From positions 1 to 64,000 of the forward strand of contig JAHDQW010000009.1 in the NCBI GenBank assembly GCA_018433585.1: 64,000 nucleotides of DNA, given 5' to 3'. The translations under genes and the position numbers were made by a program. A model generated the notes under the pieces. That model was given only the letters and a program-made list of their open reading frames with translations. It did no database searches and was not told the DNA's origin. Origin of the DNA: Candidatus Praeruminimicrobium purgamenti. GTDB taxonomy: Bacteria > Elusimicrobiota > Endomicrobiia > Endomicrobiales > Endomicrobiaceae. Shown one piece after another: positions 10,273 through 64,000 of this stretch (position 1 is the first letter of the stretch; every line of letters begins with the position of its first letter).

Positions 10273-11091
10273 CTAAAGTTCTTCTGCTCTCTGTTTTGCT
10301 TTTGTTAAAGCCGAAGAAACTATTTCTGAAAAATTGCTGTTCATAAACTCTTCCATTGCTTTTTCTGTTGTGCCGCCGGGAGAAGTTACATTTTTTCTTA
10401 AAACAGCATCATCCAAACCGCTTTCTATCAACATTTTCCCTGAACCGTATATAGTTTGATAAACAAGTTCTTTTGCTATATCTCCAGGTATTCCAAGATT
10501 TTCGGCAACATTCCTCATAACTTCTGAAAAATAAAATACATATGCAGGTCCTGAACCAGAAACCGCCGTAATGGCATTCATAAGTTTTTCTTCTACGCAA
10601 ACAACTCTTCCTATCACTGAAAACATATCTGCTATATCAGTTATATTTTCTTTTGTCGCGTTTGCTCCGCCGCATACAGCTATCGCACCCTTCCCTACAA
10701 GTGCCGGCGTATTAGGCATTACCCTTATTACAACGGATTTCTTTGAAAGTTTTTTTTCTACAAAATCCGTAGAAATACCGGCAGCTATTGTAACTATCAA
10801 CTTTGCTTTTGATATCTCTTTTGCATACTCATCTAATACAAAATTAAACTGCTGAGGCTTTATTGCCAAAAAAACTATATCTGCATTTTCTAAAGCTTTT
10901 AATTTGTCATGCTGAACTGCAACAGCATATTTTTGAGATATAACCTGAAGCCTTTCCTGCGAAATGTCATTACATATAATATTTGATCTGTTAATAATGT
11001 CGTACTTTACAAATCCGGATATTATAGCTTCAGCCATATTTCCTGAACCTATAAAAGCAACTTTTTTATCGTAAAACTTTTTACTTATCAT
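10273..11091 (-). CDS. proC: Pyrroline-5-carboxylate reductase
   Basis: ProC reduces pyrroline-5-carboxylate to proline with NAD(P)H. The Rossmann motif FIGSGNMAEAI is at the N-terminus, and the C-terminal dimer domain has the family signature VTSPGGTTEKAMEEF. The start at 11091 is chosen because GGGGAGAGG stands four bases before it; an ATG five codons upstream (11106) lies before that ribosome site. The chosen start overlaps the end of yggS by 11 bases, giving a coupled yggS-proC-yggU order that is common in bacteria. Expected size 272 residues. Confidence 0.94.
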   Translation of the reverse strand: MISKKFYDKKVAFIGSGNMAEAIISGFVKYDIINRSNIICNDISQERLQVISQKYAVAVQHDKLKALENADIVFLAIKPQQFNFVLDEYAKEISKAKLIVTIAAGISTDFVEKKLSKKSVVIRVMPNTPALVGKGAIAVCGGANATKENITDIADMFSVIGRVVCVEEKLMNAITAVSGSGPAYVFYFSEVMRNVAENLGIPGDIAKELVYQTIYGSGKMLIESGLDDAVLRKNVTSPGGTTEKAMEEFMNSNFSEIVSSALTKAKQRAEEL

Positions 11092-34361: not shown

Positions 34362-34369
34362 GTTTTAGT

Positions 34370-34440
34370 TCCGAGATAGTGTAATGGTAGCACAAGGGAA
34401 TTTGGATCCCTTCGTCTAGGTTCGAATCCTAGTCTCGGAG
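34370..34440 (+). tRNA. tRNA-Gln (anticodon UUG), probable prophage integration site
   Basis: The cloverleaf is complete: acceptor TCCGAGA/TCTCGGA, D arm GTGTAATGGTAGCAC, anticodon stem AGGGA/TCCCT with loop ATTTGGA (TTG), T arm TAGGTTCGAATCCTA, discriminator G. CCA is not encoded. Prophage sequence begins on its 3' side with no further host gene, the usual arrangement when an integrase uses a tRNA 3' end as attB. Confidence 0.95.
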
Positions 34441-34463
34441 TACTACGAATAAAATCACAAAAC

Positions 34464-50203: not shown

Positions 50204-50227
50204 AATATTCCTCTAAAATTATTATCG

Positions 50228-50257
50228 CATGAGGCAGACTTTTACATCTGCCTCATG
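50228..50257 (-). terminator. Perfect 11-bp hairpin after the capsid gene
   Basis: CATGAGGCAGA (50228-50238) pairs exactly with TCTGCCTCATG (50247-50257) around an 8-base loop in the gap between capsid stop and the receptor-binding gene. On the minus strand it is followed by CGATAATAATTTT, an imperfect T tract. It may attenuate transcription, giving much more capsid than spike, or protect the 3' end. Confidence 0.7.
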
Positions 50258-50269
50258 TTTAAAAAATCA

Positions 50270-51676
50270 CTATTCTGCAATAGTGTATGATTCTGACATA
50301 ATTTCAGAGTTAGAGAACCCTGATTTGACTGCCATTGCTTTAATTGTTTTTGCTGCCGTCAAAGCAATAGGTGCTGAATATACTGAACTTCCAAACGTCG
50401 GAGCGCTGCCGTCAAGCGTATACAGAATTACTGCGCCTGATGTCGCGCATGCAAGCGTTACAGTATCTCCGCTTGTAACTTCGCCGCTTGTAGGGGTAGC
50501 TGTAGGTTTTGCACACTGCAAACCTGCCGGAGTATCTTCCGTGAATGTAGGCTCATTTACTGCGGTATCAAGCACTATTGTAGCAAAATCTTTCCCGTCA
50601 AATACTGATTTTGCTACTCCGCCCATAATTGCAGCAGCAGTACCTGTCTTGTTGCCGTAATCAAAAGTTTCTTCCACCCACGCATTTAAATCACTGTTGT
50701 CGGTTCTTGCATAACAGCCAGCCTGCCTGCCGACAAATATAGCTCTTGCAATAGCAACTTTAGCCTGTGCAGCTGCTCCTGCAATTCCTTCAAAGTTTGC
50801 ATATGTTACATCGCCTGGTTTCAAATATGGAGTAAATTCGTGAGATACAACTACTACGCCGTCCCACTCAAAACTGTCTGCTCCGGCGAATATAGGATTG
50901 CTGTCGCCTCTATTCTGTGCGTCTTTCCATGCGGTATAAATTTTTGGATTTTTAACCAATTCCGCAAACTGCCACGGATGCACAAACATAAAATACATAT
51001 CTTTGCCGTTGTATTTAATCGGCTTTATTTTAGGTTTAGACATTTTGGCTTTTGCTTTTATTGCTGTTATCATAGCAGGAGTTATCACGTCGTAAGTTTC
51101 AAGTGCAGACAATGAAACGCCAGGGCGTGCATTATAATATCTGTCGCCTTTACCTGCTGTGAGTTCTGCTAAAGTATGTAGTACCGGAGTATTGCTCCAT
51201 GCATACCTGGCTGAATATACTACGCCGTTAACATCTTTCAAAGCTGCTTGCCCTACGCTTGCCAATTTCAAGAATATCTGCCTTTCCAAAAATTCTGTAA
51301 GCCAAGTTTTAAGCAGTTCTTTCGAGCTGCTTCTTGTTTTAAACATTGATTTTTGGTCATCAAGTCTTCCCGTGGTTCTTACGGCATTTCTGACTTGATC
51401 TATCAGTATTTCAAAATCTTTTGTTACGACAGCTTCTTCATTATCCTCAAGCTTGCTGTCGCCTACTACGCCGTCGCCTTTCAAATTGTAAACCAATCCG
51501 AATATTACCTTTTCGCCTGGCTGTTTTTTTAAATCGTCTTGGGTTTGTATGATATTATTAATATCGGGTCCCATTAATTTGTTTTTTACAAAAAACAGAT
51601 CTGCCATTGCTTCCGCGTACATCTCTTTTGCCCATATTGTAGGGCGTAATTTGCTGTTGCTTGCTGTATCCGCCAT
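50270..51676 (-). CDS. Major capsid protein, N4-gp56 type, with Ig-like C-terminus
   Basis: The 468-residue protein opens with RPTIWAKEMYAEAMADLFFVKNKLMG, then VIFGLVYNLKGDGVVGDSKLEDNEEA and AVRTTGRLDDQKSMF, the N4-gp56 family pattern. Residues from about 375 form a separate domain of the chitobiase/beta-hexosaminidase C-terminal type (CAKPTATPTSGEVTSGDTV, ILYTLDGSAPTFGSSVYSAPI), which should stick out from the shell. The gene follows the scaffold and is preceded by GAGAGGA. It should be the most abundant phage product. Confidence 0.88.
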   Translation of the reverse strand: MADTASNSKLRPTIWAKEMYAEAMADLFFVKNKLMGPDINNIIQTQDDLKKQPGEKVIFGLVYNLKGDGVVGDSKLEDNEEAVVTKDFEILIDQVRNAVRTTGRLDDQKSMFKTRSSSKELLKTWLTEFLERQIFLKLASVGQAALKDVNGVVYSARYAWSNTPVLHTLAELTAGKGDRYYNARPGVSLSALETYDVITPAMITAIKAKAKMSKPKIKPIKYNGKDMYFMFVHPWQFAELVKNPKIYTAWKDAQNRGDSNPIFAGADSFEWDGVVVVSHEFTPYLKPGDVTYANFEGIAGAAAQAKVAIARAIFVGRQAGCYARTDNSDLNAWVEETFDYGNKTGTAAAIMGGVAKSVFDGKDFATIVLDTAVNEPTFTEDTPAGLQCAKPTATPTSGEVTSGDTVTLACATSGAVILYTLDGSAPTFGSSVYSAPIALTAAKTIKAMAVKSGFSNSEIMSESYTIAE

Positions 51677-51704
51677 ATATTTATCCTCTCTTTTTTATAT
51701 TTTT

Positions 51705-52925
51705 TTAGCAGTTCCTGAGAATTCTATCCCTTACATCTTTTGGGACCTTTGCGTACTCTTCGCTGCTCATTGACTGTAAATCTTCAGCGGTTAGCTGACT
51801 CAATGGTATTTTTACTGTTCCTGAACCTGTTACGGCTGCAGAAGATTTGGCTTTGTTTGAATTCGCAATGATTTTCGCGATTTTTGCTTTACCTACTGTT
51901 TCTGTGCCTTTAGTGGTATCGGGCGGTACAGATATTAATTGCCCGAGTTCATAGGCGACTTCTGCCGCCGTTCTGCCGAATTCATCAACGCCGCCTTTGG
52001 CAAGTATTGTTGAAAATTCTACAGACAATCTTTTTGCCTGTAATATTGTTTTTCTGTCGGAGCCGAATGTTTCCTCGAGTTCTAATTCGCCCATAACAGA
52101 TTGATTTTGGTCTTTGCTCATAGCATTATTAACCATTGTGATTATTTTTTTACTGTTGATTAAAACATCGTCAAAATCTTCGTGCGACGCTCTGAATTCC
52201 TCTTCTTGCTGTGCAAGAGTTGCGACGGTTGCTTCTGCTTGTCTTCTTATTGCTTCCTGATTTTCAGGCGTTTGCACTGTGGCAGGCGGCTGATCAGGAT
52301 TATTTTCTATAGGCTGTTTTTGTGCAGCTGCTTTTCTTGCTGCTATTTTTGCCTTCATTTCGGAAACAGTCAAAACATCGTCATCGTCCATATCTCCGAA
52401 TATATCATCATCTTGATCTTGCTGTTGCTTAGCTACAGGTTTCGGCTGCTCTTTAAACGTTCTAAGTTGTTCTTCAAGCCTTGCTTTTTCAGCTTCAAGT
52501 TCTTTCGCTCTGCTTTCGGCAGCTTGACGCTGTTTTATATTCTTTTTCATGCGGAAATATAAAGCTTTGGAGTTGGCGTCATATCCCTTTAGAACTTCCT
52601 TTTCTTCATCGAGGGATAGTTCCATATCAACAACGTTTTTAATTTCCTGCCTTTTTTCTAAATCTATTGTCGCAGGCTGTTGCAGTGCCGGCGTCTTTTT
52701 TGCAGCAGGCGGAGTTGACGGATTTTTGTCATCTACTTTAATAACGGTTTTGTCTTCCTTCTCTGCAATCAGCCCGTGTTTCTTAGCCATTTCCTGTTCT
52801 TCGGGCGACAAATCGTTTTCTTGTCCGTCTTGCGGCTGCGTTTCTTCTTCTTTTACGGCAACCTCAACAGTTTCTTCTTGCGGCTGTGTTTCTTCTTCTT
52901 TTTCAGATTTTTTTAATGGTGGCAT
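51705..52925 (-). CDS. Scaffolding protein
   Basis: The 406-residue protein is highly charged and acidic at its N-terminus (EEETQPQEETVEVAVKEEE). It has a central coiled coil (RQAAESRAKELEAEKARLEEQLRTF), an Asp-rich stretch (DQDDDIFGDMDDDDVLTV) and no hydrophobic core. With its place between portal and capsid genes, these are the marks of a head-assembly scaffold that guides capsid assembly and then leaves. Confidence 0.82.
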   Translation of the reverse strand: MPPLKKSEKEEETQPQEETVEVAVKEEETQPQDGQENDLSPEEQEMAKKHGLIAEKEDKTVIKVDDKNPSTPPAAKKTPALQQPATIDLEKRQEIKNVVDMELSLDEEKEVLKGYDANSKALYFRMKKNIKQRQAAESRAKELEAEKARLEEQLRTFKEQPKPVAKQQQDQDDDIFGDMDDDDVLTVSEMKAKIAARKAAAQKQPIENNPDQPPATVQTPENQEAIRRQAEATVATLAQQEEEFRASHEDFDDVLINSKKIITMVNNAMSKDQNQSVMGELELEETFGSDRKTILQAKRLSVEFSTILAKGGVDEFGRTAAEVAYELGQLISVPPDTTKGTETVGKAKIAKIIANSNKAKSSAAVTGSGTVKIPLSQLTAEDLQSMSSEEYAKVPKDVRDRILRNC

Positions 52926-52948
52926 TTCCTTACTCCTTTCTGATTTAT

Positions 52949-54892
52949 TTATTGTTGTGGCTGTTGCGCCTGCTGTGCTTGCAGGATTGCAGCCTTTATT
53001 TTTTCTCTCGTCGCCTTTGGCAACATACTCTCGTCAATTAATACTTCTTGCGGGATAGGCATACCGTTTTTAGCCAAATCTACAAGCGTGGTATAATTAG
53101 CGAGCTTGATTGTGTCTGATTGCGGCGTTTCTGATAATGAAACGTCAAATTTTTGCAGTTCGTCAGGATTAAAAATCTCTTCCATTAACGCGGAAAATGT
53201 TTTCTCGTCAATTATCGTCTGTCCGAAATTGTTCTGAATTCCGAAATTGTCGACTAAAAACTGTTTGCCTAAAACTTTTTTTGCTTCTTCAATATCAAAA
53301 ACTTCTTTGAGTTGCGATGTTAAGAATCGCCCTAAAATTTGTTTTGAAAAAGCAAAATTATCAAATATCTTTTGCACCATAACTAAGCCCTGCTTTTGAC
53401 GCAAAGCAATAGCTCTGCCGCTTGCTTGGCTTTCGTTCATCGCAAGCAAGTCGGTATTTATACCGGACACCTCTTTGATGTCCTGCGCATTTTCCTTTGC
53501 CAATATTTCGTGAGCTGACGACAATTGTGTAGGCTCAATTTTAGTAGGTTTGTCTTTCCCTGGTTTGTATTTTAAAATGACGCCTGGCGATGAGCCAAAC
53601 TCTCTATAAACATTTTCGTCTGTAACAGCCCCTTCTTGCATCATCCACCCACTGTTGGCTGATGAATTAATATGATGTAAAGACTGCGTTCTACGCTTGT
53701 TTAACTCGAAATTTAAGTCCTTAACATCTCTTACTATGCCTTTAACGGCGAAATGCTGTTTACCGTTCTTAGGTATTTTGATAGGCGTCTTGAATGCAAA
53801 GTCAGGAATGATTGGATAGCTTTTCCAGTTAGGATAACACCAACATCTTTCGTCTTTGATGAAAGTATCCTCTCCAAGCAGTACAGTCGTCCATATTTCA
53901 GAAGTAAATCTTTTTATAATCTTTATTGTGTCGCTTTCGTATTTTTTCTTTTTTTGTTTTTTATCAAACAAACTTAAATATTCCGTGCTTTCAGCGCCGA
54001 ACTTTTCAAGCATTTCGTTTTTGTATCTCGAAGACAATATAGTCTGTAAATGTTCTTCCGCCGCCGCTTCGCTGTCAAAAGGAGTTATTACCGTTGAAAC
54101 CGTGTCAATTACATAATACTTTGCTACAGATTTTTTATAGTGGTATTCAACAACATCATACAGTCTTTTTGTTGCGCCGCTTGCGCCGTCAGAATTGTCT
54201 TTATTTTTATATTGGTCTGTGTTATTTTTTGCAGATTCCGTTTGATAGCCTTGTTCAAGCATATTAATTGTGCCGTTTTCGCAATTATCAATTATTGCTT
54301 CTTGTTCCGGAAACAACTCCTTAACTTGCGCTTTTGAAAGCCCTGCGGTAATTTCAATCACGTATTTTGCGTCTGATAAATCAAGTTCGCAGCTGTCAGG
54401 GTCAACAAATACTGTAAACGGACTTGCAAGCTTTAGCTTCAAGTTCCCGTTAACTAAATCCTCTGTATAGTCGATATAAGGCTTTAAATAACTTACACCG
54501 GTCGATAGTTTAAGTTCAAATCCGTCGCTTAGTTTTCTGTCTGCATTTGACCGCTTAACTATGTTTTTTAAAAGACGCGATACGATTTCAGCCTTAACGC
54601 TGTCTTCGTCGCCTTCAGGCAGTACGGCAAAGTCTGTTCTGTTTTGTACTTCAAGTCCGCCTAAAAGTCTTATATTAGGAATTATTTTATTGATGACAAG
54701 CTGTTTAATTCCGCGTTTGTTTAACTTTGCTTTTGCGTCTTCGTCTACCATATCGCCTAAAGAGGTCTGTAAATCATTTAACGCTTCTTTACCCCACTTT
54801 TCCCAATAGGAAAAAGCATACTTAAAGTCGGTTATAACTTTAGAACATTTGTCTTTATTGTCGTTTCTGTCGTCAATTAATTCTACAGCCAT
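52949..54892 (-). CDS. Portal protein, P22 type
   Basis: The 647-residue protein forms the dodecameric DNA gate. Residues 60-180 match P22-like portals: VINKIIPNIRLLGGLEVQNRTDFAVLPEG, SRLLKNIVKRSNADRKLSDGFE and TGVSYLKPYID. A KDERCWCYPNWKSYPIIPDFAF stretch and a Gln-rich end (AQQAQQPQQ) follow. P22's portal is 725 residues, so this one is somewhat shorter, lacking part of the barrel. Terminase genes are just upstream and scaffold just downstream. Confidence 0.9.
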   Translation of the reverse strand: MAVELIDDRNDNKDKCSKVITDFKYAFSYWEKWGKEALNDLQTSLGDMVDEDAKAKLNKRGIKQLVINKIIPNIRLLGGLEVQNRTDFAVLPEGDEDSVKAEIVSRLLKNIVKRSNADRKLSDGFELKLSTGVSYLKPYIDYTEDLVNGNLKLKLASPFTVFVDPDSCELDLSDAKYVIEITAGLSKAQVKELFPEQEAIIDNCENGTINMLEQGYQTESAKNNTDQYKNKDNSDGASGATKRLYDVVEYHYKKSVAKYYVIDTVSTVITPFDSEAAAEEHLQTILSSRYKNEMLEKFGAESTEYLSLFDKKQKKKKYESDTIKIIKRFTSEIWTTVLLGEDTFIKDERCWCYPNWKSYPIIPDFAFKTPIKIPKNGKQHFAVKGIVRDVKDLNFELNKRRTQSLHHINSSANSGWMMQEGAVTDENVYREFGSSPGVILKYKPGKDKPTKIEPTQLSSAHEILAKENAQDIKEVSGINTDLLAMNESQASGRAIALRQKQGLVMVQKIFDNFAFSKQILGRFLTSQLKEVFDIEEAKKVLGKQFLVDNFGIQNNFGQTIIDEKTFSALMEEIFNPDELQKFDVSLSETPQSDTIKLANYTTLVDLAKNGMPIPQEVLIDESMLPKATREKIKAAILQAQQAQQPQQ

Positions 54893-54907
54893 ATATAACC
54901 CTCTTTT

Positions 54908-56308
54908 TTAACAAGTTTCAGCGTCGAATCTGTACGGATTGTCCCAAGGACTTTTTACTTGATAATCTCTTACAGATTTTTTATGTATATTTTCTGTATG
55001 TATATCTTCCGGTCTTATCGTTACGGCAAACATTCTTAACGCGTCTGCGCCGTGAGAAGACCAATCATGTAAAGGTTGGTCTGAAAAAATTTTCCTTTCT
55101 TCGTCCCACGCGCGGCGATAATTTTTAAGAACATTAAGACCTTTTTTGCACTTTTCTTTGTCAAACCACAATTTCGGGAATATATCCCTTACAGCGTCTA
55201 TACCGTCGGCAATTCTTAGATTTGGGGCGAGTTCGAATTCCCAACCTAACTCCATTGCAGTATCAAGCCTTGATTTACCGTTTGTCAGTTCCCTTTGTTT
55301 AATATCGTGAGGCGCTATATTACGGCCGTAAACATACGGTTTCTTTTTTAAAAGCGGAATTACTTCGCTTAATCCTTTGCCTACAAACTCCTCATAATCA
55401 ATAACGTGTACTTCTGCGCCGACGAACTGTAAAAACCATACAGGCATAGTATCAGCTACGCCTAAATCCCAAACGGTATGTACCGGCAAATTTGGTATAT
55501 GACTTACTACGCCTACCCTGCCTGCAGCATACGCGTCAGAGATTTGTTTTGCGTAATAAGCGCCCGAAATAGGCACCGTATAATCGACGTGGTACTCTTG
55601 ACGGAACAATGCGTCATTACCGTATTTGAACAGTATTTGCTGTCTTGTCCTCTCAAGAACATCCATGTCAATAGCGTGAGTATCGTTTACGCCTTGTTGT
55701 ATTACAAACCAATGCTTAGGGGCCGTAAGAGCATATTGATGTAAGTCATATGCGTGATTCTCTCCTCTAGGCGTATATATAAACAACGCCCAGCCGCCGT
55801 TTTCGTCTAATATCGGCATAAAGTAATCCCAAGCGTAAGGGTTCATCAAACTGAATTCCGAAAAGATTATGCCGATAGGGTTAGTTCCCATAACGCTGTC
55901 AATCTTATCTGCGCCAATAATCTGTATCATCGAACCGCACTTGAGTTCTATTCTCATTTCGGTTTCGTTTATTTGATACTGATTTTTTCTGCGCTTGATT
56001 ATTTTTTTAGGTATATATTCGTCAAGAAACTTTTTACCTTCTTTGTTTCGTCCGTTCCACAGAACCTTTTTACCTTGTGCATACGTTGGAAAGCAGTAAA
56101 AATAGGTTCCTATACGCTCGTGAGCCTTTTTAACCATTAAATTAAGCCCGTTGACATCTTTACCCCAACGGCGATGACATACGCATATACCACGCAAATA
56201 ACCCTCATCAAACCGCTCAAATAGCGGCTCTTGATAAGTACGAGGCGTAAAGTTATAAGGCAATATAATTTCAGACGCCTTTGTGATATCTATTTTTTTA
56301 TTTTGCAT
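54908..56308 (-). CDS. Terminase large subunit
   Basis: The 466-residue ATPase/nuclease packages DNA. A Walker A-like CHRRWGKD is at 44-51 and Walker B with its glutamate at IGIIFSE (145-151). The RNase H-like nuclease has VWDLGVADT (Asp281, Asp286), and a late Asp in HGADALRMF (about 432). The length and motifs agree with headful or cos terminases of podoviruses. The small-subunit gene overlaps its start by 11 bases. Confidence 0.92.
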   Translation of the reverse strand: MQNKKIDITKASEIILPYNFTPRTYQEPLFERFDEGYLRGICVCHRRWGKDVNGLNLMVKKAHERIGTYFYCFPTYAQGKKVLWNGRNKEGKKFLDEYIPKKIIKRRKNQYQINETEMRIELKCGSMIQIIGADKIDSVMGTNPIGIIFSEFSLMNPYAWDYFMPILDENGGWALFIYTPRGENHAYDLHQYALTAPKHWFVIQQGVNDTHAIDMDVLERTRQQILFKYGNDALFRQEYHVDYTVPISGAYYAKQISDAYAAGRVGVVSHIPNLPVHTVWDLGVADTMPVWFLQFVGAEVHVIDYEEFVGKGLSEVIPLLKKKPYVYGRNIAPHDIKQRELTNGKSRLDTAMELGWEFELAPNLRIADGIDAVRDIFPKLWFDKEKCKKGLNVLKNYRRAWDEERKIFSDQPLHDWSSHGADALRMFAVTIRPEDIHTENIHKKSVRDYQVKSPWDNPYRFDAETC

Positions 56309-56852
56309 TTTTTTTCTTTTTTGAAAAATTAATTGTTTTAATTACAACACCGTTAATATCATCTTCGTCGCCAAACACTGCGTCGCGCATATCTGTGTTG
56401 TTAATCGCATAAAACTTTGCAAATTGTGAGTTATAATTATTTCGTAGGGCATTCGTACATAAAAATTCTTTTTGCAATTCTTTGCACATCTCAAAAGTGT
56501 CGGAAAATTCCTTAGAGTTTTTAACCCACTCGTAAAACGTGTCTCTGTTAATGCCTACGGAAAGACAAAACCCGACGACAGTCGGCATATCGTTCGCGCA
56601 ATCGTATTCAATTTCATTGCCTTGAGCGTCAATTTTGGTAGATTTTGTATAAGGCTTGACATCAAAGTAATTAATCAGCTTAGTACACATATCCTGCGTG
56701 TACTTCGTCGGTCTGCCTACGCGGACAATCTGTATCACGCCGTTAACTTCTTGGCGCTGCCCGATAAAAGCAGAATCATCAAACAAAAGTTTTTCAAACC
56801 TTTCGTCTTTTGTGATATTGGTTTTTGTTTTTACTTTTTTTGTCTGAACCAT
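56298..56852 (-). CDS. Terminase small subunit
   Basis: The 184-residue protein has a helix-turn-helix region (CTKLINYFDV...DMPTVVGFCLSVGINRDTFYEWVKNSKEF) matching small terminase subunits that recognise the packaging site. The upstream GGATTTTTATG ribosome site can pair with TCC 20 bases earlier (hairpin arms at 56853-56860 and 56881-56888), so initiation may be tempered by RNA structure. The large-subunit gene overlaps the end by 11 bases. Confidence 0.84.
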   Translation of the reverse strand: MVQTKKVKTKTNITKDERFEKLLFDDSAFIGQRQEVNGVIQIVRVGRPTKYTQDMCTKLINYFDVKPYTKSTKIDAQGNEIEYDCANDMPTVVGFCLSVGINRDTFYEWVKNSKEFSDTFEMCKELQKEFLCTNALRNNYNSQFAKFYAINNTDMRDAVFGDEDDINGVVIKTINFSKKKKNAK

Positions 56853-56937
56853 AAAAATCCTTTTTTGCCTTTCACTTATAGGATTTTTTCCAGACGAAAA
56901 CGGCGTTTTTCTTTATTTATCAATACTTTTCGTGCTT

Positions 56938-56980
56938 AAAAGCGGTATGTCAAAGCGGTATGAAATTAAAAGCGGTTTTG
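56938..56980 (+). repeat. Three GCGGT repeats before the terminase genes
   Basis: AAAGCGGTATG occurs at 56939-56949 and 56952-56962, and the related AAAGCGGTTTTG follows at 56969. They lie just upstream of the small-subunit gene in the only sizeable non-coding gap of the late region. A packaging (pac/cos) site or a late-gene operator are both possible. Confidence 0.45.
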
Positions 56981-57253
56981 AATTGATTTTAATGTTTTGT
57001 AAATGAAATGTTCGGTTAAACCGGTACGGCGGCGGATAAGGCGTCTACCCCACCCAAGCTTGTAATGACAGAATAAAATAAGCCTTTCGTTTTTACAAAA
57101 TTTATCAAGTCCTATACTGTCCTTTGTCCTCTCAAATTCAAGATATTCTTTTAAAATATCATTGTTTTTAAACAAGACAGTAGCGTCCTGATATTTGTAT
57201 TTTATCGGCAGCTTATTTATTTTTTTTTGTTTTTTAAGATATTTACTTACCAT
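56966..57253 (-). CDS. Small basic helix-turn-helix protein
   Basis: The 95-residue Lys/Arg-rich protein ends with LILFCHYKLGWGRRLIRRRTGLTEHFIYKTLKSIQNRF, which reads like a sigma- or transposase-type helix-turn-helix. It overlaps the end of the replication gene by seven bases and precedes the terminases. A late-gene activator would fit this position, but no named family is recognised. Confidence 0.6.
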   Translation of the reverse strand: MVSKYLKKQKKINKLPIKYKYQDATVLFKNNDILKEYLEFERTKDSIGLDKFCKNERLILFCHYKLGWGRRLIRRRTGLTEHFIYKTLKSIQNRF

Positions 57254-58470
57254 TTTTTTGATTTTAAGACGACAATTAAATTTTTTAACTGTTCAAGCCA
57301 AAGGGTTTTATATTCGCTCACATGCGCTAAAGCGTTTAAATTTCCGTACTGTTTTTTTAAATCGGCAAGCATAACGTCAAACTTTACCGTCAACAAATCT
57401 TTCTCGACAGGCTTTTTCAAAATCGTTTCCGCCCGTTTTTGCACTGTTTTTTTACGCTTAATATTTTCAGCCACAAGCGCATTAATCGACGACGAGAACA
57501 CGCCTATTTCGGGTTTTCCGTACTGCCAAAGCGTCTGATCGTCCACCCACTCAAAAAAAATATTTATAATTTCTCTTGCTTTGTCTTCGCCAATGTCGCC
57601 CGACAGTTTAGAAAAAATCATCATATCTTTGCCGAAATTGTGCTTGTATGGGCTGCTGTATTTATCGCTAAAAACTTTATCCCAATAGCCGCAAATACGC
57701 TGCGTAGCGTTTGGAGAATCGAGCAAACTTCGTTTCTCTTTTTTCGGTTTCGTTTTTTGCGGTTGGTTAAAAAAGTCGTTTCCATTACTTTCGTTAGAAA
57801 GTAATAAGTCTTTTTCTTTATTACTGTTATCTTTATATATGTCAGACTTTTTTGATGTTTTTTCACTTTTTGCTTGTGGATAACTTGTACTTTTATATAT
57901 ATTATTATCCTGTTTTTCTTCTCTTATTGATTGTGAATAATTATTATCAATTTGGATAATTTCATTATCATTTTGGATAACTTTATTATCATTTTGGATA
58001 ATTTCCTTACTTTTTTCTTCTTTAATACTTTTTTCATTATTTGCATTGATTTTTGTATCGGTTTTAATGTTTTCTTGCAAATTATCAATTTTGATAATCG
58101 GATTATCATTTTGGATAATTTTCGCCGCTTTTTTTATACTTTTTAACTGCCATTTTTTAGCGTCTTTGTTGAAACCGTAAACGGTGCCGAACCTTGTTTT
58201 TTCACGTATTATAATTGCTTGATCCGCAAGTCTTTTTAAGCACCGCAACACGTTTGTTTTTGCAATTCCTGTCTCTTCTATAAATTTATCCAAAGATATT
58301 ATTGTCCGCCGGCGGCCGTAGCCGTATGTCATACGGAATATTAACATTAACATCTGAAAACTTTGTCCGGACAAATTTGTATTTGCCAGGTTAGTTAAAA
58401 TTTCATTTGCAATTTTTGTGTAGCCGTTTTCTAGTTGAGGAGTATCCTCGTCTTGTAGTATTTCATCCAT
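57247..58470 (-). CDS. Phage replication initiator, O-protein type
   Basis: The N-terminal 100 residues match the phage replication protein O domain (PQLENGYTKIANEIL, SGQSFQMLMLIFRMTYGYGRR, ISLDKFIEETGI), a winged helix that binds the origin. A long low-complexity linker follows, with repeated IIQNDN units translated from DNA iterons. A C-terminal region (GYWDKVFSDKYSSPYKHNFGKDMMIFSKL) would contact the helicase. The DnaB gene lies two genes upstream, as in P22 (gp18 with gp12). The start has AAGGA 10 bases before ATG. Confidence 0.85.
   Translation of the reverse strand: MDEILQDEDTPQLENGYTKIANEILTNLANTNLSGQSFQMLMLIFRMTYGYGRRRTIISLDKFIEETGIAKTNVLRCLKRLADQAIIIREKTRFGTVYGFNKDAKKWQLKSIKKAAKIIQNDNPIIKIDNLQENIKTDTKINANNEKSIKEEKSKEIIQNDNKVIQNDNEIIQIDNNYSQSIREEKQDNNIYKSTSYPQAKSEKTSKKSDIYKDNSNKEKDLLLSNESNGNDFFNQPQKTKPKKEKRSLLDSPNATQRICGYWDKVFSDKYSSPYKHNFGKDMMIFSKLSGDIGEDKAREIINIFFEWVDDQTLWQYGKPEIGVFSSSINALVAENIKRKKTVQKRAETILKKPVEKDLLTVKFDVMLADLKKQYGNLNALAHVSEYKTLWLEQLKNLIVVLKSKKW
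57875..58119. other. Candidate phage replication origin inside the initiator gene
   Basis: Five 18-bp iterons, each a dyad ATTATC-N6-GATAAT, lie within the linker-coding part of the O-type gene, as in lambda. Two DnaA-box matches on the minus strand stand beside them: TTATCCACA (57875-57883, exact consensus) and TTATTCACA (57932-57940, two bases from the first iteron). Between the third and fourth iteron is an 80-base T-rich stretch that could melt. This combination is more than codon bias would give; see findings. Confidence 0.7.
57943..58119. repeat. Five 18-bp dyad iterons
   Basis: Units start at 57943, 57964, 57985, 58081 and 58102. Within each group the spacing is exactly 21 bases. Four have perfect ATTATC and GATAAT arms; the second ends GATAAC. 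The N6 is ATTTTG in three, AATTTG and AATTTT in the others. They encode repeats in the protein, but the conserved palindrome is a DNA feature. Confidence 0.85.
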
Positions 58471-58473
58471 ACA

Positions 58474-58836
58474 TTAGTCCTTTTGACAGCCTTTATATTG
58501 TTTCTGTTCTTCATTTCTTTTTATTAATTCTCCCATAGCAATAATAATTCCTTCGGGAGATTTTTGTTCTGTTTGCAGACATGCTTGACCGTAAATTGAA
58601 ACTTGTCTCTGAAATTCTAGCCATTCCTCTTGTTCGGCCATATAATCAAGCATATTTTTTAAAAATGGCATTGCTAAAAATAAATTTATTGTTAAACAAC
58701 AAACATTAAAGATATTAAAATCTTTCAATAGTTCTTTATAAAAAAAGAAACATCCAACAACCCAACCCGAAGTAATGGCGATTACACACATAATAAAAAC
58801 AATAACCATACTGCCTAAATTTGCTTTGTATCTCAT
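58474..58836 (-). CDS. Two-helix membrane protein between replication genes
   Basis: The 120-residue protein has two hydrophobic helices (MVIVFIMCVIAITSGWVVGCFFF and FNVCCLTINLFLAMPFL) and a charged soluble tail (MAEQEEWLEFQRQVSIYGQ). Its start is 11 bases from the dnaB stop and its stop three bases before the initiator start, so it is part of the same message. I do not recognise it; membrane attachment of replication or superinfection exclusion are guesses. Confidence 0.6.
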   Translation of the reverse strand: MRYKANLGSMVIVFIMCVIAITSGWVVGCFFFYKELLKDFNIFNVCCLTINLFLAMPFLKNMLDYMAEQEEWLEFQRQVSIYGQACLQTEQKSPEGIIIAMGELIKRNEEQKQYKGCQKD

Positions 58837-58847
58837 AGTTTTACCTC

Positions 58848-60191
58848 TTAATCTTTATCAAAAAATCTTGAAATTTCTTTTTTGAAAATCATAGGAACTT
58901 CGCAGGTTATCCCGTTCCTGTTTTTCTCGATTATTAACGTTGCGTCATTTTGTATAGCTTCATTGCTTTTATCGTAATATCCGTCTCTATGCACAAAAAC
59001 AACAACATCAGCGTCCTGCTCGATTGCTCCTGAATCTCTTAAGTCTGAAAGTCTTGGTTTATTGTTTTTTCTCCCTCTGTCTTCCGTTTGTCTGTTAAGC
59101 TGCGATAACGCAATAACAGGAATGTTCAAATCTCTTGCCAAACCTTTCAAATTTCGTGAAATTTCGCTCACTTCAAGCGCTCTGCTGTCTCTTTGTCTGT
59201 TGGAAGACAATAACTGCAGATAATCAATAATAATAAGTTTTAAGTCAATTCCCTGCGTTTTCAATTTGTTAAAAAGTTTCCTGCTCTCGATTCGGCAGTC
59301 AAAAACAGTCATATCTGACCTGTCATCAATAAATAAATTAATATCATTAAGTTTATTCATTGTTTGCGTTATTGATCCGAACTGTTGTTCAGCAATGTAC
59401 CCGCTTGCAATTTTTCGGCTGTTAATTTGAGACAAATTTGAAACAAACTTATTCATAAGCGATTCTTTGTTCATTTCGAGCGAGAAAATAGCGGCTGCAG
59501 ACGTTCTGTCGTCTTTGGCTACATTAAGCCCGATATTTAGCGCAAAGGTTGTTTTTCCCATGGACGGACGACCGGCAATTATAATTAATTCGCCTTTTGC
59601 AAGGCCGCCGAGCCTTTTATCAAAATTATCAAACCCGGTTCTCAAATTCGGTATATCTTTTTTATCAGCGACAAGCCTTTCAATGTTTTTCATTGTCGGC
59701 ACAATCATATCTTTAACGGCGACAAATCCGCCTTTTATTCCGCTTATAGCAACATCGGCAACAGACTTTTGCGCAAAATCTAAAATTGTTTTTGCGTCAT
59801 CGGCTCCGTCAAGTATCTTTTTATGGACCGTAGAACTAACGGTCAATAAATTTCGCAGCAATGCCTTTTCTTTTACTATATTTGCGTGAAATATTACATT
59901 GGCGGTTGTATCTATCGAATCTATCATTTGCGTTAATACAAGTCCTTTGCCTTTGCTTTCAAAATCCTTATCGCTTTGCATTTTTTCGGCAACAGAAATT
60001 ATATCTATCGGCAAATTGTTAATATATAAGTCTTTGCAAACTGTAAAGATTTTGGCGTGCAAATCAATATAAAAATCGTCGGAGCTTAATATAGTTAATA
60101 CGTCGCCGATATCGTTTTTTTCTATCATCATCGCAGCTAACACTGCCTTTTCGGCGTCTATATTTTGCGGCTGCAAATTTTTTTCAGTCAT
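58848..60191 (-). CDS. Replicative DNA helicase, DnaB family
   Basis: The 447-residue hexameric helicase has an N-terminal DnaB domain (NIDAEKAVLAAMMIEKN) and a RecA-type ATPase with Walker A GRPSMGKTT at 207-215, Walker B IIIDYLQLLS and the DnaB signature SDLRDSGAIEQDADVV. P22 likewise carries its own helicase (gp12), removing the need for host loader recruitment. No DnaC-like loader is seen. Confidence 0.94.
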   Translation of the reverse strand: MTEKNLQPQNIDAEKAVLAAMMIEKNDIGDVLTILSSDDFYIDLHAKIFTVCKDLYINNLPIDIISVAEKMQSDKDFESKGKGLVLTQMIDSIDTTANVIFHANIVKEKALLRNLLTVSSTVHKKILDGADDAKTILDFAQKSVADVAISGIKGGFVAVKDMIVPTMKNIERLVADKKDIPNLRTGFDNFDKRLGGLAKGELIIIAGRPSMGKTTFALNIGLNVAKDDRTSAAAIFSLEMNKESLMNKFVSNLSQINSRKIASGYIAEQQFGSITQTMNKLNDINLFIDDRSDMTVFDCRIESRKLFNKLKTQGIDLKLIIIDYLQLLSSNRQRDSRALEVSEISRNLKGLARDLNIPVIALSQLNRQTEDRGRKNNKPRLSDLRDSGAIEQDADVVVFVHRDGYYDKSNEAIQNDATLIIEKNRNGITCEVPMIFKKEISRFFDKD

Positions 60192-60193
60192 TA

Positions 60194-60292
60194 TTATTTT
60201 CCGCCTTTGTACATTAAAATCAAAATATATACCGTAATTATTGCTGCGTATATCGCAAATTCGAGAATAATCTGTAATTTTTTATTTTTCAT
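60194..60292 (-). CDS. 32-residue single-helix membrane microprotein
   Basis: The frame ATG at 60290-60292 to TAA at 60194-60196 encodes MKNKKLQIILEFAIYAAIITVYILILMYKGGK. It has basic ends around one membrane helix. It overlaps the radical SAM gene's end by 11 bases and has GGCGG seven bases before ATG. The dnaB start is two bases beyond its stop, so it fills the gap exactly. Function unknown. Confidence 0.55.
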   Translation of the reverse strand: MKNKKLQIILEFAIYAAIITVYILILMYKGGK

Positions 60293-60995
60293 TTTTCAAC
60301 CGCCTTTTTAATTCCCGATTCATTGCTTTAAAAAACGAATCTTTAAATTTCAACACTTTTTTCCATTCGGCATATATTTCAGGTAAATTCTTATATAAAT
60401 CAATTACAAATTTTTCTTCCGATATTTTAGGATTGAGTTTATAATTGGTTAAGCAGCCAATCCATATTCCTTTGTAATTTGACTTCCCGATATAAGTTAA
60501 ATATATATATATCAGAGATGATATATTCAATAAAGGTTCAAGCGATATGCTAAAATTAAAATGTGGACATATATAATCAATAGCCGCGTATCTTTCTATG
60601 TATGTAGGCGCATTTGGCTCAAAATAATTATTGTAAAAAATAGTCAATGTAATTCTAAATTCTAGATTTATTTTTTTAGGGTTATTTGCAAATCGCTCAA
60701 CAAATCGTATAGCTACATAACGATTCATTTTAGAAACAATAAGAATTTTATTGTCGTATTCAAGAAGTTTTTCTATTGTATCGGCAACTTTATCAAAATT
60801 ATGAACTGTTATATCGTGCATTGTCGGAAACATTATCACGCCGTTATATTTCTTTATTACTGGTTCCTTTGGCTGAAATTTAAAGCGTTTATTTAATTTA
60901 CGAGCATAACAGTATCTACAACCATATTCGCACGTATATTGCAAATTAAGCGAATGTTGCGCCCATTCCTGAACACCGGTCTTTTTATTTTTCAT
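60282..60995 (-). CDS. Phage-encoded radical SAM-like protein
   Basis: CEYGCRYCYAR at Cys22, Cys26 and Cys29 is the CxxxCxxC iron-sulphur motif of radical SAM enzymes. What follows (GVIMFPTMHDITVHNF, LEYDNKILIVSKMNRYVAIRFVERF, FNFSISLEPLL) resembles DUF5131/SplB-like enzymes, shortened to 237 residues. The gene is in the early region among DNA-modification and nucleotide genes. A nucleobase modification or repair of photoproducts is possible. Substrate unknown. Confidence 0.75.
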   Translation of the reverse strand: MKNKKTGVQEWAQHSLNLQYTCEYGCRYCYARKLNKRFKFQPKEPVIKKYNGVIMFPTMHDITVHNFDKVADTIEKLLEYDNKILIVSKMNRYVAIRFVERFANNPKKINLEFRITLTIFYNNYFEPNAPTYIERYAAIDYICPHFNFSISLEPLLNISSLIYIYLTYIGKSNYKGIWIGCLTNYKLNPKISEEKFVIDLYKNLPEIYAEWKKVLKFKDSFFKAMNRELKRRLKNEK

Positions 60996-60997
60996 TT

Positions 60998-61195
60998 TTA
61001 CCTTCCAATCTTATTTTTTTGTTCAAAATAATCACAAACTATATTATTTATTCTGTCAAAAAAATCGGCTTTTAAGCATAGAGTTAACGCTTCTTTTTCT
61101 CTACCTTCGGGCAAGTCTGAAATTGTTTTTTTCTCTAATTCCTTTGCTGTTGTTATTTCTGTTTTTATTTTTTCTATAAAATCTTTATTATTCAT
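60998..61195 (-). CDS. Small helical phage protein
   Basis: This 65-residue charged protein (MNNKDFIEKIKTEITTAKELEKKTISDLP...) is nearly all helix. It overlaps the nuclease-like gene by four bases (ATGA) and leaves two bases to the radical SAM gene, which supports real translation. No family is recognised. Confidence 0.55.
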   Translation of the reverse strand: MNNKDFIEKIKTEITTAKELEKKTISDLPEGREKEALTLCLKADFFDRINNIVCDYFEQKNKIGR

Positions 61196-61797
61196 TTTAA
61201 ATCCTCTGAATTAAAATACATTTTTCTATGGTCGGGTCTTTCTTTATAAATCACTACAGAACCGCCAAAATGTTGTTGAATCTCTTCTATATTTTCCTTT
61301 CTTCCGCCAGTTCTCCCGATTGAATGTCTAATAGCTGATACTACTAATCCCCATGTAGGCGGCATAGGTTCCAATCGTGGGGAATCTTTTTTAAAAATAA
61401 AGGTAATATTAGAGTCTCCGTACTCGTCAATTATTATCTGTTTTTCAATATCTATTTCTATTAACCCGGCATATAAAGGTATTTCTTTAACATCTAGTAA
61501 TCCTATAGGCGTAACATAGAAAAAATAATGCGAAAATAGCCTAGCGAAGTCTTGTTTATTTGGTTGTTTTAGTTCTTTTAAAAAATCTTGACGTGAAACT
61601 TTAATTTCGTAAGTTGTAACTATTGGATTGTTTTCAATTGATATAGAAAATAAATCTGCGCGTCTCCGACTATTATTCCCAAATCCACAATGGTAAGGCA
61701 TTTCGGTTGCAAAAAGATGTTGAATATTAAACCTACGCGTAATATCGCGTATACATAACCTCTGGTACAATTCTTTTGTTTTTTCCTTATCGTTCAT
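61192..61797 (-). CDS. MmcB-like PD-(D/E)XK domain protein
   Basis: The 201-residue protein has RRRADLFSISIENNPIVTTYEIKVSRQDFLKELKQPNK. The spacing of Asp and ExK (YEIKVS) is that of PD-(D/E)XK folds such as MmcB or VRR-like enzymes, which act on DNA ends or repair sites. The rest (HYFFYVTPIGLLDVKEIPLYAGLIEI) continues the fold. Its role may be in recombination or host-DNA turnover. Both ends overlap neighbours. Confidence 0.72.
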   Translation of the reverse strand: MNDKEKTKELYQRLCIRDITRRFNIQHLFATEMPYHCGFGNNSRRRADLFSISIENNPIVTTYEIKVSRQDFLKELKQPNKQDFARLFSHYFFYVTPIGLLDVKEIPLYAGLIEIDIEKQIIIDEYGDSNITFIFKKDSPRLEPMPPTWGLVVSAIRHSIGRTGGRKENIEEIQQHFGGSVVIYKERPDHRKMYFNSEDLK

Positions 61798-61930
61798 TTT
61801 TGCCTTCTGATTTTATTTTTTTCTCAAAATTTATGACAAAATCTTGATAGCCACAATTGCGGCATTTTAATCTTTCATTTTGTTTTGTCAAATCTATTAT
61901 CCTTTTACTCCCACATTTAGGACATTTCAT
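61787..61930 (-). CDS. 47-residue zinc-ribbon microprotein
   Basis: The product MKCPKCGSKRIIDL...LKCRNCGYQDFVINF has two CxxC pairs, a rubredoxin-like zinc ribbon. It starts inside the end of the Zn-ribbon/MazG gene (4-base overlap) and its end overlaps the next start by 11 bases. Its first residues mirror those of its neighbour (CPKCGS). It could be a DNA- or RNA-binding adapter. Confidence 0.72.
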   Translation of the reverse strand: MKCPKCGSKRIIDLTKQNERLKCRNCGYQDFVINFEKKIKSEGKNER

Positions 61931-62385
61931 TTTTTACCTCCCAAATCAATATACATAGCAAAGCCGACGGCTAAAATTTGTATAAGTTCTTTTTGGATAT
62001 TTTCTATACCGCCTAATTTGCGTTTTTCTTCGCCGTTATTAAACATGGTCTCATTTACAGCCTGTGCCATTTCTCCGAATTCTTCTGCCATTATAGACTG
62101 CCAAACTTCGGGATTATGACTTTGAGGACCGTATTTTTGGTCTTGTCTATTTCTTTCTTCCAAAATCAAATATAAAACATTTAGATTTTTAACAAGATTA
62201 ATTGATTCTTGTAAATTAATAATATCTTTAACGTTATTGTTTTTTATATGCTCTATATCCTTTTCGTTAGCTTTTATAAAAGTAGTTACTTTTCCGCAAC
62301 AAATACATCTTCCCGTTGCTTGATAGATAACATTATTGTCGTCGAAATAAATATTAGCGCTTCCGCACTTAGGACATCTTCTCAT
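61927..62385 (-). CDS. Zinc ribbon fused to MazG-like NTP pyrophosphohydrolase
   Basis: The 152-residue protein opens with a zinc ribbon (RRCPKCGSANIYF...GRCICCGK), then an all-alpha MazG-like domain with IMAEEFGEMAQAVNE and KELIQILAVGFAMY. Such enzymes split dNTPs or alarmones such as ppGpp, and in phages they help hold the host in a growth state. The added zinc finger is uncommon. Overlaps with the next gene (ATGA) tie them together. Confidence 0.8.
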   Translation of the reverse strand: MRRCPKCGSANIYFDDNNVIYQATGRCICCGKVTTFIKANEKDIEHIKNNNVKDIINLQESINLVKNLNVLYLILEERNRQDQKYGPQSHNPEVWQSIMAEEFGEMAQAVNETMFNNGEEKRKLGGIENIQKELIQILAVGFAMYIDLGGKK

Positions 62386-62654
62386 ATTTCACACTCCTTT
62401 AATAATTTTATAATACTGGTATGAAAAAAAATTTTATTCATCTTACGACAAATTTTTTTTATTTTTGAGCAATAGCGATAACAATATCGTCTAATTCTTT
62501 TTTTATTTAAGAAATAAAACTTTTTACTGTTTTTTATTGACTTTTTAATTTTCTTTTTAAGGTTATGAAAAAAAATAAGGCGATTGATTGCACAGTCTGC
62601 TTGTTTTTCCAGTTGATCCATTAAATCGTAATTTTCAATATAAGTGGCAAACAT
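62382..62654 (-). CDS. Basic Cys-containing small phage protein
   Basis: The 90-residue protein is very basic (KKKIKKSIKNSKKF, KKRIRRYCYRYCSKIKKICRKMNK). Its stop region overlaps the following start by four bases. It lies between the tRNA-like gene and the MazG gene. Nucleic-acid binding is plausible from charge alone; no family is recognised. Confidence 0.5.
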   Translation of the reverse strand: MFATYIENYDLMDQLEKQADCAINRLIFFHNLKKKIKKSIKNSKKFYFLNKKRIRRYCYRYCSKIKKICRKMNKIFFHTSIIKLLKECEI

Positions 62655-62676
62655 TTTTAAACCTCTCTTTTTTTTA

Positions 62677-62837
62677 TGAGCCGGGCAGGATTTGAACCTG
62701 CAACAGATGATTGATTAGAACATTTGCTTTTTCGTTATATAATCCTGATTCTTGAGAAATTAGAGATAATCAATCTCCTTTTTATTCTCACTTCTTGGAT
62801 TAGCAATAACGGCGTCTACCATTTCCGCCACCGGCTC
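62677..62837 (-). tRNA. tRNA-like gene with enlarged anticodon arm
   Basis: The minus strand has perfect acceptor arms (GAGCCGG / CCGGCTC, discriminator A), a Leu-like D arm (GGCGGAAATGGTAGACGC) and a T arm (GCAGG-TTCAAAT-CCTGC). The total is 161 bases, about 70 more than a type II tRNA. Where the anticodon arm should be there is a long interrupted hairpin: CGTTAT/ATAACG, TAATCC/GGATTA, TGAGAA/TTCTCA, GAGAT/ATCTC. Dropping 62 bases after TTGCTA leaves a normal stem CGTTA/TAACG with loop TTGCTAA (GCU), which disagrees with the Leu-like body. It may be intron-bearing, inactive, or a decoy. Confidence 0.72.
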
Positions 62838-62842
62838 ATTTT

Positions 62843-62995
62843 TTAATTGACATTCAATTTAGACAGCTCGTATCTTTTTTCAATTTCAGTTATATAATCA
62901 TTCAATGTTTTATATCCGATAGACCATAGATATATCGGCAATACTATTTTGTAAACTTTATCTTTTACCCAATCTATCAAGGTTAATTCTTTCAT
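62843..62995 (-). CDS. 50-residue phage protein
   Basis: The reading frame MKELTLIDWVKDKVYKIVLP...YELSKLNVN has a very strong ribosome site (GAGGGGG, six bases before ATG) that lies across the stop of the upstream methyltransferase gene. It ends six bases before the tRNA-like gene. No family is recognised. Confidence 0.55.
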   Translation of the reverse strand: MKELTLIDWVKDKVYKIVLPIYLWSIGYKTLNDYITEIEKRYELSKLNVN

Positions 62996-62999
62996 TTTT

Positions 63000-63347
63000 T
63001 TACCCCCTCATCGGCATAATTACATATTTATTTTCGTTATCTTCGACTATTATATGTCCTGGTAAATCGTATCTTAACCACATAGTCCTGCAGTAAGGTT
63101 CTTTGACTGGCTTCAATAACAAAGGGTTTGAATCGCAATTTAATATATATGCAGCTCTTTTATGTTGAGGAAATATTTTGTATGCTGACTTAAATAGACT
63201 ATACGGATTAATTTTTGCAAATTCGGGTAAATGATTGTCTCCCCAAACAGGATCCGTAATAATACTATCTACAGCCTCTATTTCAGGCATAATTTTACGA
63301 CAATCTCCGCAATATATAGTGATATTTTCAAATCTTTCAATTTGCAT
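63000..63347 (-). CDS. Short DNA methyltransferase-like protein, probably truncated
   Basis: The N-terminus ITIYCGDCRKIMPEIEAVDSIITDPVWGDN has the AdoMet-enzyme catalytic motif in the form DPVW (32-35). The middle (AAYILNCDSNPLLLKPVKEPYCRTMWLRYDLPG) matches phage amino-methyltransferases that are normally about twice as long. The frame ends at 115 residues with no continuation visible in the next gene. It is either a decayed or a minimal enzyme. It overlaps the Dam-type gene by 11 bases. Confidence 0.68.
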   Translation of the reverse strand: MQIERFENITIYCGDCRKIMPEIEAVDSIITDPVWGDNHLPEFAKINPYSLFKSAYKIFPQHKRAAYILNCDSNPLLLKPVKEPYCRTMWLRYDLPGHIIVEDNENKYVIMPMRG

Positions 63348-63771
63348 TTTGTTTGTCCTTAAAAATACATATCATACTGTCGTGCATGCCGCATTTATTA
63401 AATACTTTTTCTCCGTAAGTGTTTATGCCTTCAAATTTTACTCTTCCTCTTAAAAATCGTATTTCACAATTTGGTAAGATAATCTCATGAAATATTTTTG
63501 TTGACGTAGAAACCGGCAATAACATCACTATAATTTTTCCTTTTTTGAATTCTTCAAAAGCTTTTAAAATAAAAGCTTCTTTAAGTTTGCGGCTATACGG
63601 CGGATTGACAAAATTACACCCCCCCCACTCAATCTTTAAACCATCCCATTGCGTCAAATCGTGTTTAAGTGGGCAAGGGTCAAAATTAAATTTAAACTCG
63701 GCGGCAAGTTGTTCATACAGACTATCAGGAGTTTTCCAATCATCATTATTTCCTAAATTTCTGTTTTTCAT
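63337..63771 (-). CDS. Phage DNA N6-adenine methyltransferase, Dam type
   Basis: The 144-residue protein fits the phage Dam family: DDWKTPDSLYEQLAAEF, FNFDPCP (31-34), CNFVNPPYS (NPPY at 56-59) and VMLLPVSTSTKIFHEIILP, then EIRFLRGRVKFEG. It methylates adenine in DNA, probably to hide phage DNA from restriction enzymes. The start overlaps the TM micro-ORF stop (TAATG). Confidence 0.9.
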   Translation of the reverse strand: MKNRNLGNNDDWKTPDSLYEQLAAEFKFNFDPCPLKHDLTQWDGLKIEWGGCNFVNPPYSRKLKEAFILKAFEEFKKGKIIVMLLPVSTSTKIFHEIILPNCEIRFLRGRVKFEGINTYGEKVFNKCGMHDSMICIFKDKQNAN

Positions 63772-63845
63772 TACTTATACCTCGATAAAAAATATACTCC
63801 GCCAAACCAAAAAACCAAAAATAAAATTATTAATATATATTGCAT
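63771..63845 (-). CDS. 24-residue membrane micro-ORF
   Basis: MQYILIILFLVFWFGGVYFLSRYK is a single membrane helix with a basic end. Both its start and stop join neighbours through TAATG, so ribosomes could move through three frames without release. Conservation in related phages is needed to prove it is real. Confidence 0.5.
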   Translation of the reverse strand: MQYILIILFLVFWFGGVYFLSRYK

Positions 63846-63958
63846 TACTTATTTTTCCTGCTCTTAATTTTTGCCGCAACCGCAGACATAACAGACAAGT
63901 CAGTCCAAAAACATTTTTCTGCTTTATCTTGCAATGATTCTTCGTTTTTGGCGTACAT
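63845..63958 (-). CDS. 37-residue phage protein
   Basis: MYAKNEESLQDKAEKCFWTDLSVMSAVAAKIKSRKNK is a small helical protein. The start is set by GAGG seven bases upstream; an in-frame ATG four codons earlier (63970) lacks a ribosome site. Its stop overlaps the next start in TAATG. No family is known. Confidence 0.5.
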   Translation of the reverse strand: MYAKNEESLQDKAEKCFWTDLSVMSAVAAKIKSRKNK

Positions 63959-63966
63959 ATAAGTCC

Positions 63967-64000
63967 TCATTTTTTCTGTTTTTCAAGCTTTTGCAGTTCG
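63967..64000 (-). CDS. C-terminal end of an upstream gene (cut by right edge)
   Basis: The last 33 bases read ELQKLEKQKK and stop (TGA), a Lys/Gln coiled-coil end. The stop lies within the ribosome site region of the next gene, fitting the tight packing of this operon. Only 10 codons are visible, so the gene's identity is unknown. Confidence 0.4.
   Translation of the reverse strand, partial: ELQKLEKQKK

Follow-up and report, generated by a model that had tools for sequence, protein, structure and literature searches.

RNAs that resemble tRNA but are anticodon-less form a known kind, with tmRNA and the Y RNAs as its examples. tmRNA possesses a tag ORF and a partner, SmpB. The bacterial Y RNAs (YrlA), reportedly described by Chen et al. 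in 2014, are said to be non-coding RNAs with a tRNA-mimicking module that has no decoding role, and to include representatives in phages. In the engineered tRNA scaffolds used for RNA production a structured insert replaces the anticodon arm. The tRNA-like upper half of tmRNA is without an anticodon arm and is charged by AlaRS, which ignores the anticodon (PMC3985003), and putative tRNA introns have been reported from Lak phages (PMC6784885). For leucine, E. coli LeuRS needs A73, A15-U48, G18G19, A20a and contacts between the D and T loops, and a tRNA-Leu truncated of both its anticodon and variable arms is still charged (reviewed in PMC9976931).

Judged from its sequence, the element described here is a member of a common, almost wholly unannotated, leucine-specific class of phage RNAs. 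This leucine-type class is undescribed in the literature found, appearing neither in Rfam nor in searches of published open-access papers, an absence that is not proof of novelty. It shares with the Y RNAs a tRNA-mimicking module without decoding, but its 5' end pairs with its 3' end as a tRNA acceptor stem; it has the layout of the engineered scaffolds but is natural, phage-encoded and leucine-specific. Class II tRNA-Leu has the same D-arm, T-arm, A73 and A15-U48, and in many members a variable-arm helix lies at the normal place, whereas the class is without an anticodon arm and separates D-arm from T-loop by 50-115 nt in place of about 30-42. The tRNA-like domain of tmRNA likewise has an acceptor stem and a T-arm, the latter separated from the D-loop by a large inserted domain (PMC3985003); unlike it, the class has Leu rather than Ala identity, retains a D-stem and is mostly 100-165 nt long (up to 217). 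The Lak megaphage tRNA introns, and the insertions at position 28/29 considered below, likewise make for elongated phage tRNA genes, overlooked or mislabelled by standard tools (PMC6784885), but their excision gives a normal arm and none is obtained for the Leu-like class or for the element itself. With rather more confidence than doubt, we read this phage early-operon element as an anticodon-less, non-decoding tRNA-Leu mimic that is probably leucylated and most likely acts as a counter-defence or regulatory decoy.

The element and its prophage

The window, that is the whole stretch of 64,000 nucleotides analysed (G000:C6:1-64000), comes from a bacterial genome of 1.86 Mb. A prophage of about 35 kb starts at a tRNA-Gln(TTG) gene (34369-34441, plus strand), which forms attL; its other end is at C6:69783-69797, a 15-bp repeat of the 3' end of this tRNA gene just past the integrase gene (C6:68622-69770). 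Next to attL lies a gene (34588-40614, minus strand) for a phage polyvalent protein of 2008 aa that contains an LPD3 domain. The element itself (62677-62837, minus strand; 161 nt) belongs to a co-directional early-gene block that also encodes a Dam-type DNA methyltransferase (63337-63771, minus strand; Pfam PF05869, E 9e-19). Directly upstream, a 50-aa ORF (62846-62998, minus strand) ends about 8 nt before the element, and a 90-aa ORF (62382-62654, minus strand) starts 22 nt downstream, neither with a Pfam or PHROG match. Its position between close co-directional ORFs suggests that the RNA is released from the operon transcript, most likely being cut from a long precursor.

The preliminary description had recognised here a Leu-type tRNA-like phage gene with a long structured hairpin in place of the anticodon arm, and two of the checks it proposed bear this out. 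Infernal (Rfam cmscan) calls tRNA (RF00005) on the minus strand across all 161 nt with the full model (32.9 bits, gathering threshold 29, E 0.0011), and the 161-base RNA folds with a z-score of -4.6, none of 200 shuffles being as good. Default ARAGORN gives no tRNA call at the element. Read from its 5' end at 62837 to the discriminator A (A73) at 62677, the element consists of GAGCCGG, TG, GCGGAAATGGTAGACGC, an interior of 110 nt, GCAGGTTCAAATCCTGC, CCGGCTC and A, the interior after GCGGAAATGGTAGACGC running CGTTATTGCTAATCC...GGATTATATAACG, then AAAAAGCAAATGTTCTAATCAATCATCTGTT, then GCAGGTTCAAATCCTGC. The acceptor, D and T arms are intact as had been claimed: the two acceptor strands (GAGCCGG, 62831-62837; CCGGCTC, 62678-62684) pair 7/7, the T-arm (62685-62701) has a loop TTCAAAT on a stem GCAGG/CCTGC paired 5/5, and the D-arm (62812-62828), with A14, A15, G18G19 and A20a, is of the Leu type found in the tRNA-Leu genes of the host. 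All four stems previously assigned to the place of the anticodon arm exist as well (CGTTAT/ATAACG, AATCC/GGATT, TGAGAA/TTCTCA, GGAGAT/ATCTCT), within an interrupted hairpin of 79 nt (62733-62811; MFE -20.1 kcal/mol) that on its own scores z -3.7, with 2 of 1000 shuffles as good, as against -1.5 to +0.6 for four neighbouring 110-nt stretches taken as controls. The claim that a variable arm can form stands only as a possibility: the 31-nt variable region (62702-62732), whose last nucleotide at 62702 is U48, allows a candidate arm AGCA.AUG/CAU.UGUU, but this contains an A.C mismatch and has a z-score of only -1.8. By ARAGORN, Rfam and folding alike the element has no contiguous anticodon arm with a 7-nt loop. 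The sequence keeps the acceptor stem, D-arm, T-arm and elbow pairs of a predicted L-shaped upper half but has lost or exchanged the anticodon arm. The tmRNA covariance models of Rfam give no match to the element at E<=1, and by this criterion tmRNA identity was rejected.

The interior of the element is a singleton. No close relatives were returned by a DNA search of 99 related genomes, by blastn against phages or by an exact pattern in viral contigs, and in a pattern scan of 340 genomes of the same phylum the element was the only class member, the second match appearing, on inspection of its matched sequence by eye, to be an ordinary tRNA-Leu with a T-loop that happens to lie behind it. An ordinary tRNA at this locus in related phages, with the extra bases plainly a recent insertion, had been named as a finding that would speak against the proposal; the one related prophage found, G025, has head and packaging genes in common with that of the window, and among its matching phage genes there is no tRNA-like gene, hence no ordinary tRNA, and no recent insertion is visible.

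The host genome holds a full set of Leu tRNAs and a Ser(GCU) tRNA. Elsewhere in it, G000:C7:25518-25602 (L046) is a Ser-body tRNA, with a long variable arm and a GGCCGAG D-arm, that carries the anticodon GAA and is called Phe by ARAGORN; it is possibly a mistranslating or a decayed tRNA. Two tRNA-Ser(GGA) genes lie 2.3 kb apart (G000:C18:51998-52084 and 54350-54436; L035, L047), the second scoring 44.9 as against 60.4 bits in Rfam, and this pair is possibly the mark of an integrated element.

The intron question

An elongated tRNA gene might be an intron-bearing tRNA, the central part being excised to leave a normal tRNA as proposed for the Lak phages, and the preliminary description had noted that removal of 62 nt from the element produces the loop TTGCTAA (GCU). 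The loop can be obtained, but only when nucleotide 26 is dropped and a 31-nt variable arm accepted, and the Ser GCU loop, the only restorable one, is at odds with the Leu D-arm and A73. ARAGORN in intron mode proposes a different 'intron', of 82 nt, again with a Ser(GCU) arm. When all excisions were enumerated in shuffled interiors of the element, some canonical arm was restorable in 27% and a Leu arm in 4.5%; restoration of an arm being at chance level, the GCU loop is no evidence for an intron. Among the Leu-like elements of a first set, 35 of 38 have no restorable arm, and a restorable intron, clear in 2/38 as against 4.75% in shuffles, was rejected for the set. A group I intron was likewise rejected for the element, no Rfam intron family, group I included, matching at E<=1 in 50000-64000.

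The statement that short non-group-I introns are not known in bacterial tRNAs is nevertheless outdated, given the Lak phage reports (PMC6784885) and the insertions of 50-57 nt at 28/29 found here. Among elongated class I tRNAs, 8 of 14 regain a perfect anticodon arm after removal of 50-57 nt, compared with 0.9% of shuffles, the insertion interrupting the 5' strand of that arm's stem at nucleotides 28/29 or 29/30. These cases, the published phage tRNA introns (PMC6784885) and three Leu(UAA)-type insertion cases (L104, L109 and L485, with inserts in stem or loop) lend the intron reading what support it has; the chance-level Ser arm in a Leu body and the prevalence of unrestorable elements in the first set make it quite improbable for the window element. 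The 28/29 tRNA introns are a phenomenon separate from the anticodon-less class and may belong with the Lak phage tRNA introns described as 'enigmatic'. On phage contigs, stem insertions were seen in tRNAs for Asn (L256, L309, L316), Lys (L277), Arg (L294), Cys (L312), Phe (L313) and Ile (L278), and the motifs ACAGCAA and GTTACT(T) recur in phage tRNA insertions. An archaeal bulge-helix-bulge intron did not fit the few class I cases looked at by hand.

A leucine-type class in phages

Viral contigs were scanned for a Leu D-arm followed at a set distance by a T-loop, pairing not being required; the pattern prescribed A15, G18G19 and A20a but left U48 and A73 free. All class counts given here are lower bounds, and the D-arm and T-loop sequences in them are partly imposed by the pattern. 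The tRNA-Leu-like molecules among the matches listed are mostly 100-165 nt long. With a gap of 84-114 nt there were at least 106 distinct matches, 39 of them overlapping ordinary tRNAs and 67 being single molecules; among these at least 67 listed molecules a 7/7 acceptor occurs in 50, a 5/5 T-stem in 61, U48 in 57 and A73 in 46. With a gap of 52-82 nt, 109 of the matches listed (at least 110) were single molecules, and 92 of these (at least 109 listed) have a 7/7 acceptor, 105 U48 and 81 A73. Control scans built in the same way yielded 1 single molecule among 52 matches listed for a Ser D-arm, as against 67 for Leu, and 33 among 114 matches listed for a class I D-arm, 19 of them with a 7/7 acceptor. 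Altogether at least 141 distinct elements are without an anticodon arm, whether contiguous or restorable, with U48 in 138/141 and A73 in 111/141 (absent in 21%); ARAGORN makes no call among these at least 141 elements listed, which shows that a class of phage RNA genes escapes tRNA finders. Bacterial genomes seldom carry such elements: 84,980 species genomes gave at least 7 single molecules with a 7/7 acceptor.

The window element has every feature by which the class is recognised, namely the Leu D-arm, 7/7 acceptor, T-arm, U48, A73 and an enlarged interior without an anticodon arm. Its layout of a long hairpin with a weak variable arm recurs in a few members (e.g. L070, L119, L143), and an anticodon-like helix after the D-arm is weakly enriched in the class (18% as against 10.5%), which implies that this layout is not general. 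The variable arm is sometimes kept or enlarged: a perfect helix that stops exactly 2 nt short of the T-arm, where class II tRNAs such as tRNA-Leu have their variable arm, is a class feature enriched only around that register and not universal, and the window element has an imperfect helix there, with the A.C mismatch. Flanking ORFs are on the same strand as the elements in 434 cases and on the opposite strand in 52, and ordinary tRNAs, where present nearby, are on the same rather than the opposite strand by 173 to 2. No recurrent gene family was found beside the elements, and hence no partner is suggested. At five loci (L114, L161, L497, L523, L539) two or three different anticodon-less elements occur together, in L114 alongside ordinary tRNA genes.

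Within eleven groups of related elements the acceptor helix shows 12 double-compensatory, 5 tolerated and 0 broken cells, acceptor pairing having been a selection criterion for these groups, and the helix at the variable-arm position shows 10 double-compensatory, 4 tolerated and 3 broken cells. Related pairs have interiors 76-100% identical, mostly at least 83%, and in most of them both 200-nt flanks are at random level; since interiors are kept while flanks are unrelated, the elements are kept as units and probably also move as units. The preliminary description had allowed for a corrupted tRNA, that is, a tRNA-Leu gene broken by an insertion, with selection lost, or else an assembly error. 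The singleton status of the window element and its imperfect variable arm would suit such decay, but its acceptor (7/7), T-stem (5/5) and elbow nucleotides are all intact and its hairpin reaches z -3.7; for the class, the compensatory changes in acceptor and variable arm and the conservation of elements across unrelated contexts render corruption unlikely, and for the window element we consider it very improbable.

Members in cultured phages, reached by BLAST starting from the first matches, are carried by phiJL-1, ATCC 8014-B2, R24.2, Lpa804, LP65, Iacchus, WC29P3 and zrk29-2, with hosts among Lactobacillus, Weissella and Tenericutes (zrk29-2 being a Tenericutes phage); the element lies at 36563-36670 in Lactobacillus phage phiJL-1 and at 10270-10396 in Weissella phage WC29P3. 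Many of these elements have the acceptor GTGCTTG/CAAGCAC in common, with unrelated interiors of 55-165 nt. The T-arm of the lactobacillus family has 6 bp (GTAGGG-TGCAAAT-CCCTAC), with the loop TGCAAAT instead of TTC, and lactobacillus elements found by their 3' part also retain the D-loop nucleotides. In Lactobacillus phages P1 and P2 (L582, L583, at about 530-630) the element sits between the genes for the small and large terminase subunits, its acceptor and T-arm identical to those of the lactobacillus elements and its D-arm and interior replaced by the short hairpin TGCCGTTAATTAGTTTGGCA; on the face of its letters, this version is a natural tRNA minihelix. Viral contigs commonly carry members of the class, and classic cultured phages, LP65 and phiJL-1 among them, have it too; in the cultured phages, however, these elements are nowhere annotated as such, the one exception to their lack of annotation being a 'tRNA-OTHER' pseudogene call next to the LP65 element, on the other strand.

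Function of the RNA

The 62 elements with an AGTCAGG acceptor among those listed have exteriors about 95% identical and interiors no more alike than shuffled sequences, and interiors are conserved within subfamilies. Both observations, like the retention of acceptor and T-arm in P1 and P2 with all else exchanged, are what would be expected of a tRNA-scaffolded small RNA, in which the tRNA body serves processing and stability, the variable centre is an antisense or protein-binding payload and leucylation is incidental. A generic scaffold needs neither leucine specificity (67 Leu as against 1 Ser single molecules among the matches listed) nor A15-U48 and A73, however, and on average the folding of the class interiors is only a little better than chance (mean z -0.87), so we regard this reading as unlikely. 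A decoy or regulatory role is more likely than a passive scaffold, and the abundance of Leu elements beside almost no Ser elements agrees with an RNA for which leucine identity is important.

In the decoy mechanism that we propose, RNase P and 3'-end enzymes would cut the RNA from the operon transcript, CCA would be added, and the host LeuRS would charge the product with leucine, the anticodon arm not being needed; the window element retains the E. coli LeuRS determinants A73, A15-U48, G18G19 and A20a. The charged RNA could then present a stable tRNA 'top' to some elbow- or acceptor-binding factor of the host or the phage, the central domain being the specific part of the decoy. As such an RNA cannot decode, it would act outside translation. 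Among the roles suggested in the preliminary description, that of an RNA with its own function gains support as one alternative; with no anticodon loop to offer, the element is less likely to be a decoy for anticodon nucleases, and it may be one for a binder of the tRNA elbow or acceptor. We put forward only tentatively, as somewhat short of probable, the wider proposal that phages of very different bacteria encode leucine-identity anticodon-less mimics that would be charged and never decode, either as a leucyl counterpart of the tmRNA top or as decoys for tRNA-sensing host factors. The 6-bp T-stem and TGCAAAT loop of the lactobacillus elements, and the lack of a D-arm in P1 and P2, are a poor fit to LeuRS recognition for those members. 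If charged, these RNAs would give phages a leucyl-RNA pool barred from normal translation and raise the new question of phage manipulation of tRNA enzymes or of tRNA-based defence; the class is directly testable with lactobacillus phages.

By the TROVE criterion these elements are not Y RNAs: the Ro60/TROVE domain (PF05731) is missing from the host genome, and among 30 element-bearing records 28 also lack it, the other two being a jumbo phage and a Nostoc genome. The 341-kb jumbo phage contig with element L078 encodes a TROVE/Ro60-like protein at G357:C1:311318-312007. A further contig (L100) carries a permuted tmRNA gene (3650-3884; RF04321, 55.9 bits) about 30 nt upstream of its anticodon-less element (3915-4063).
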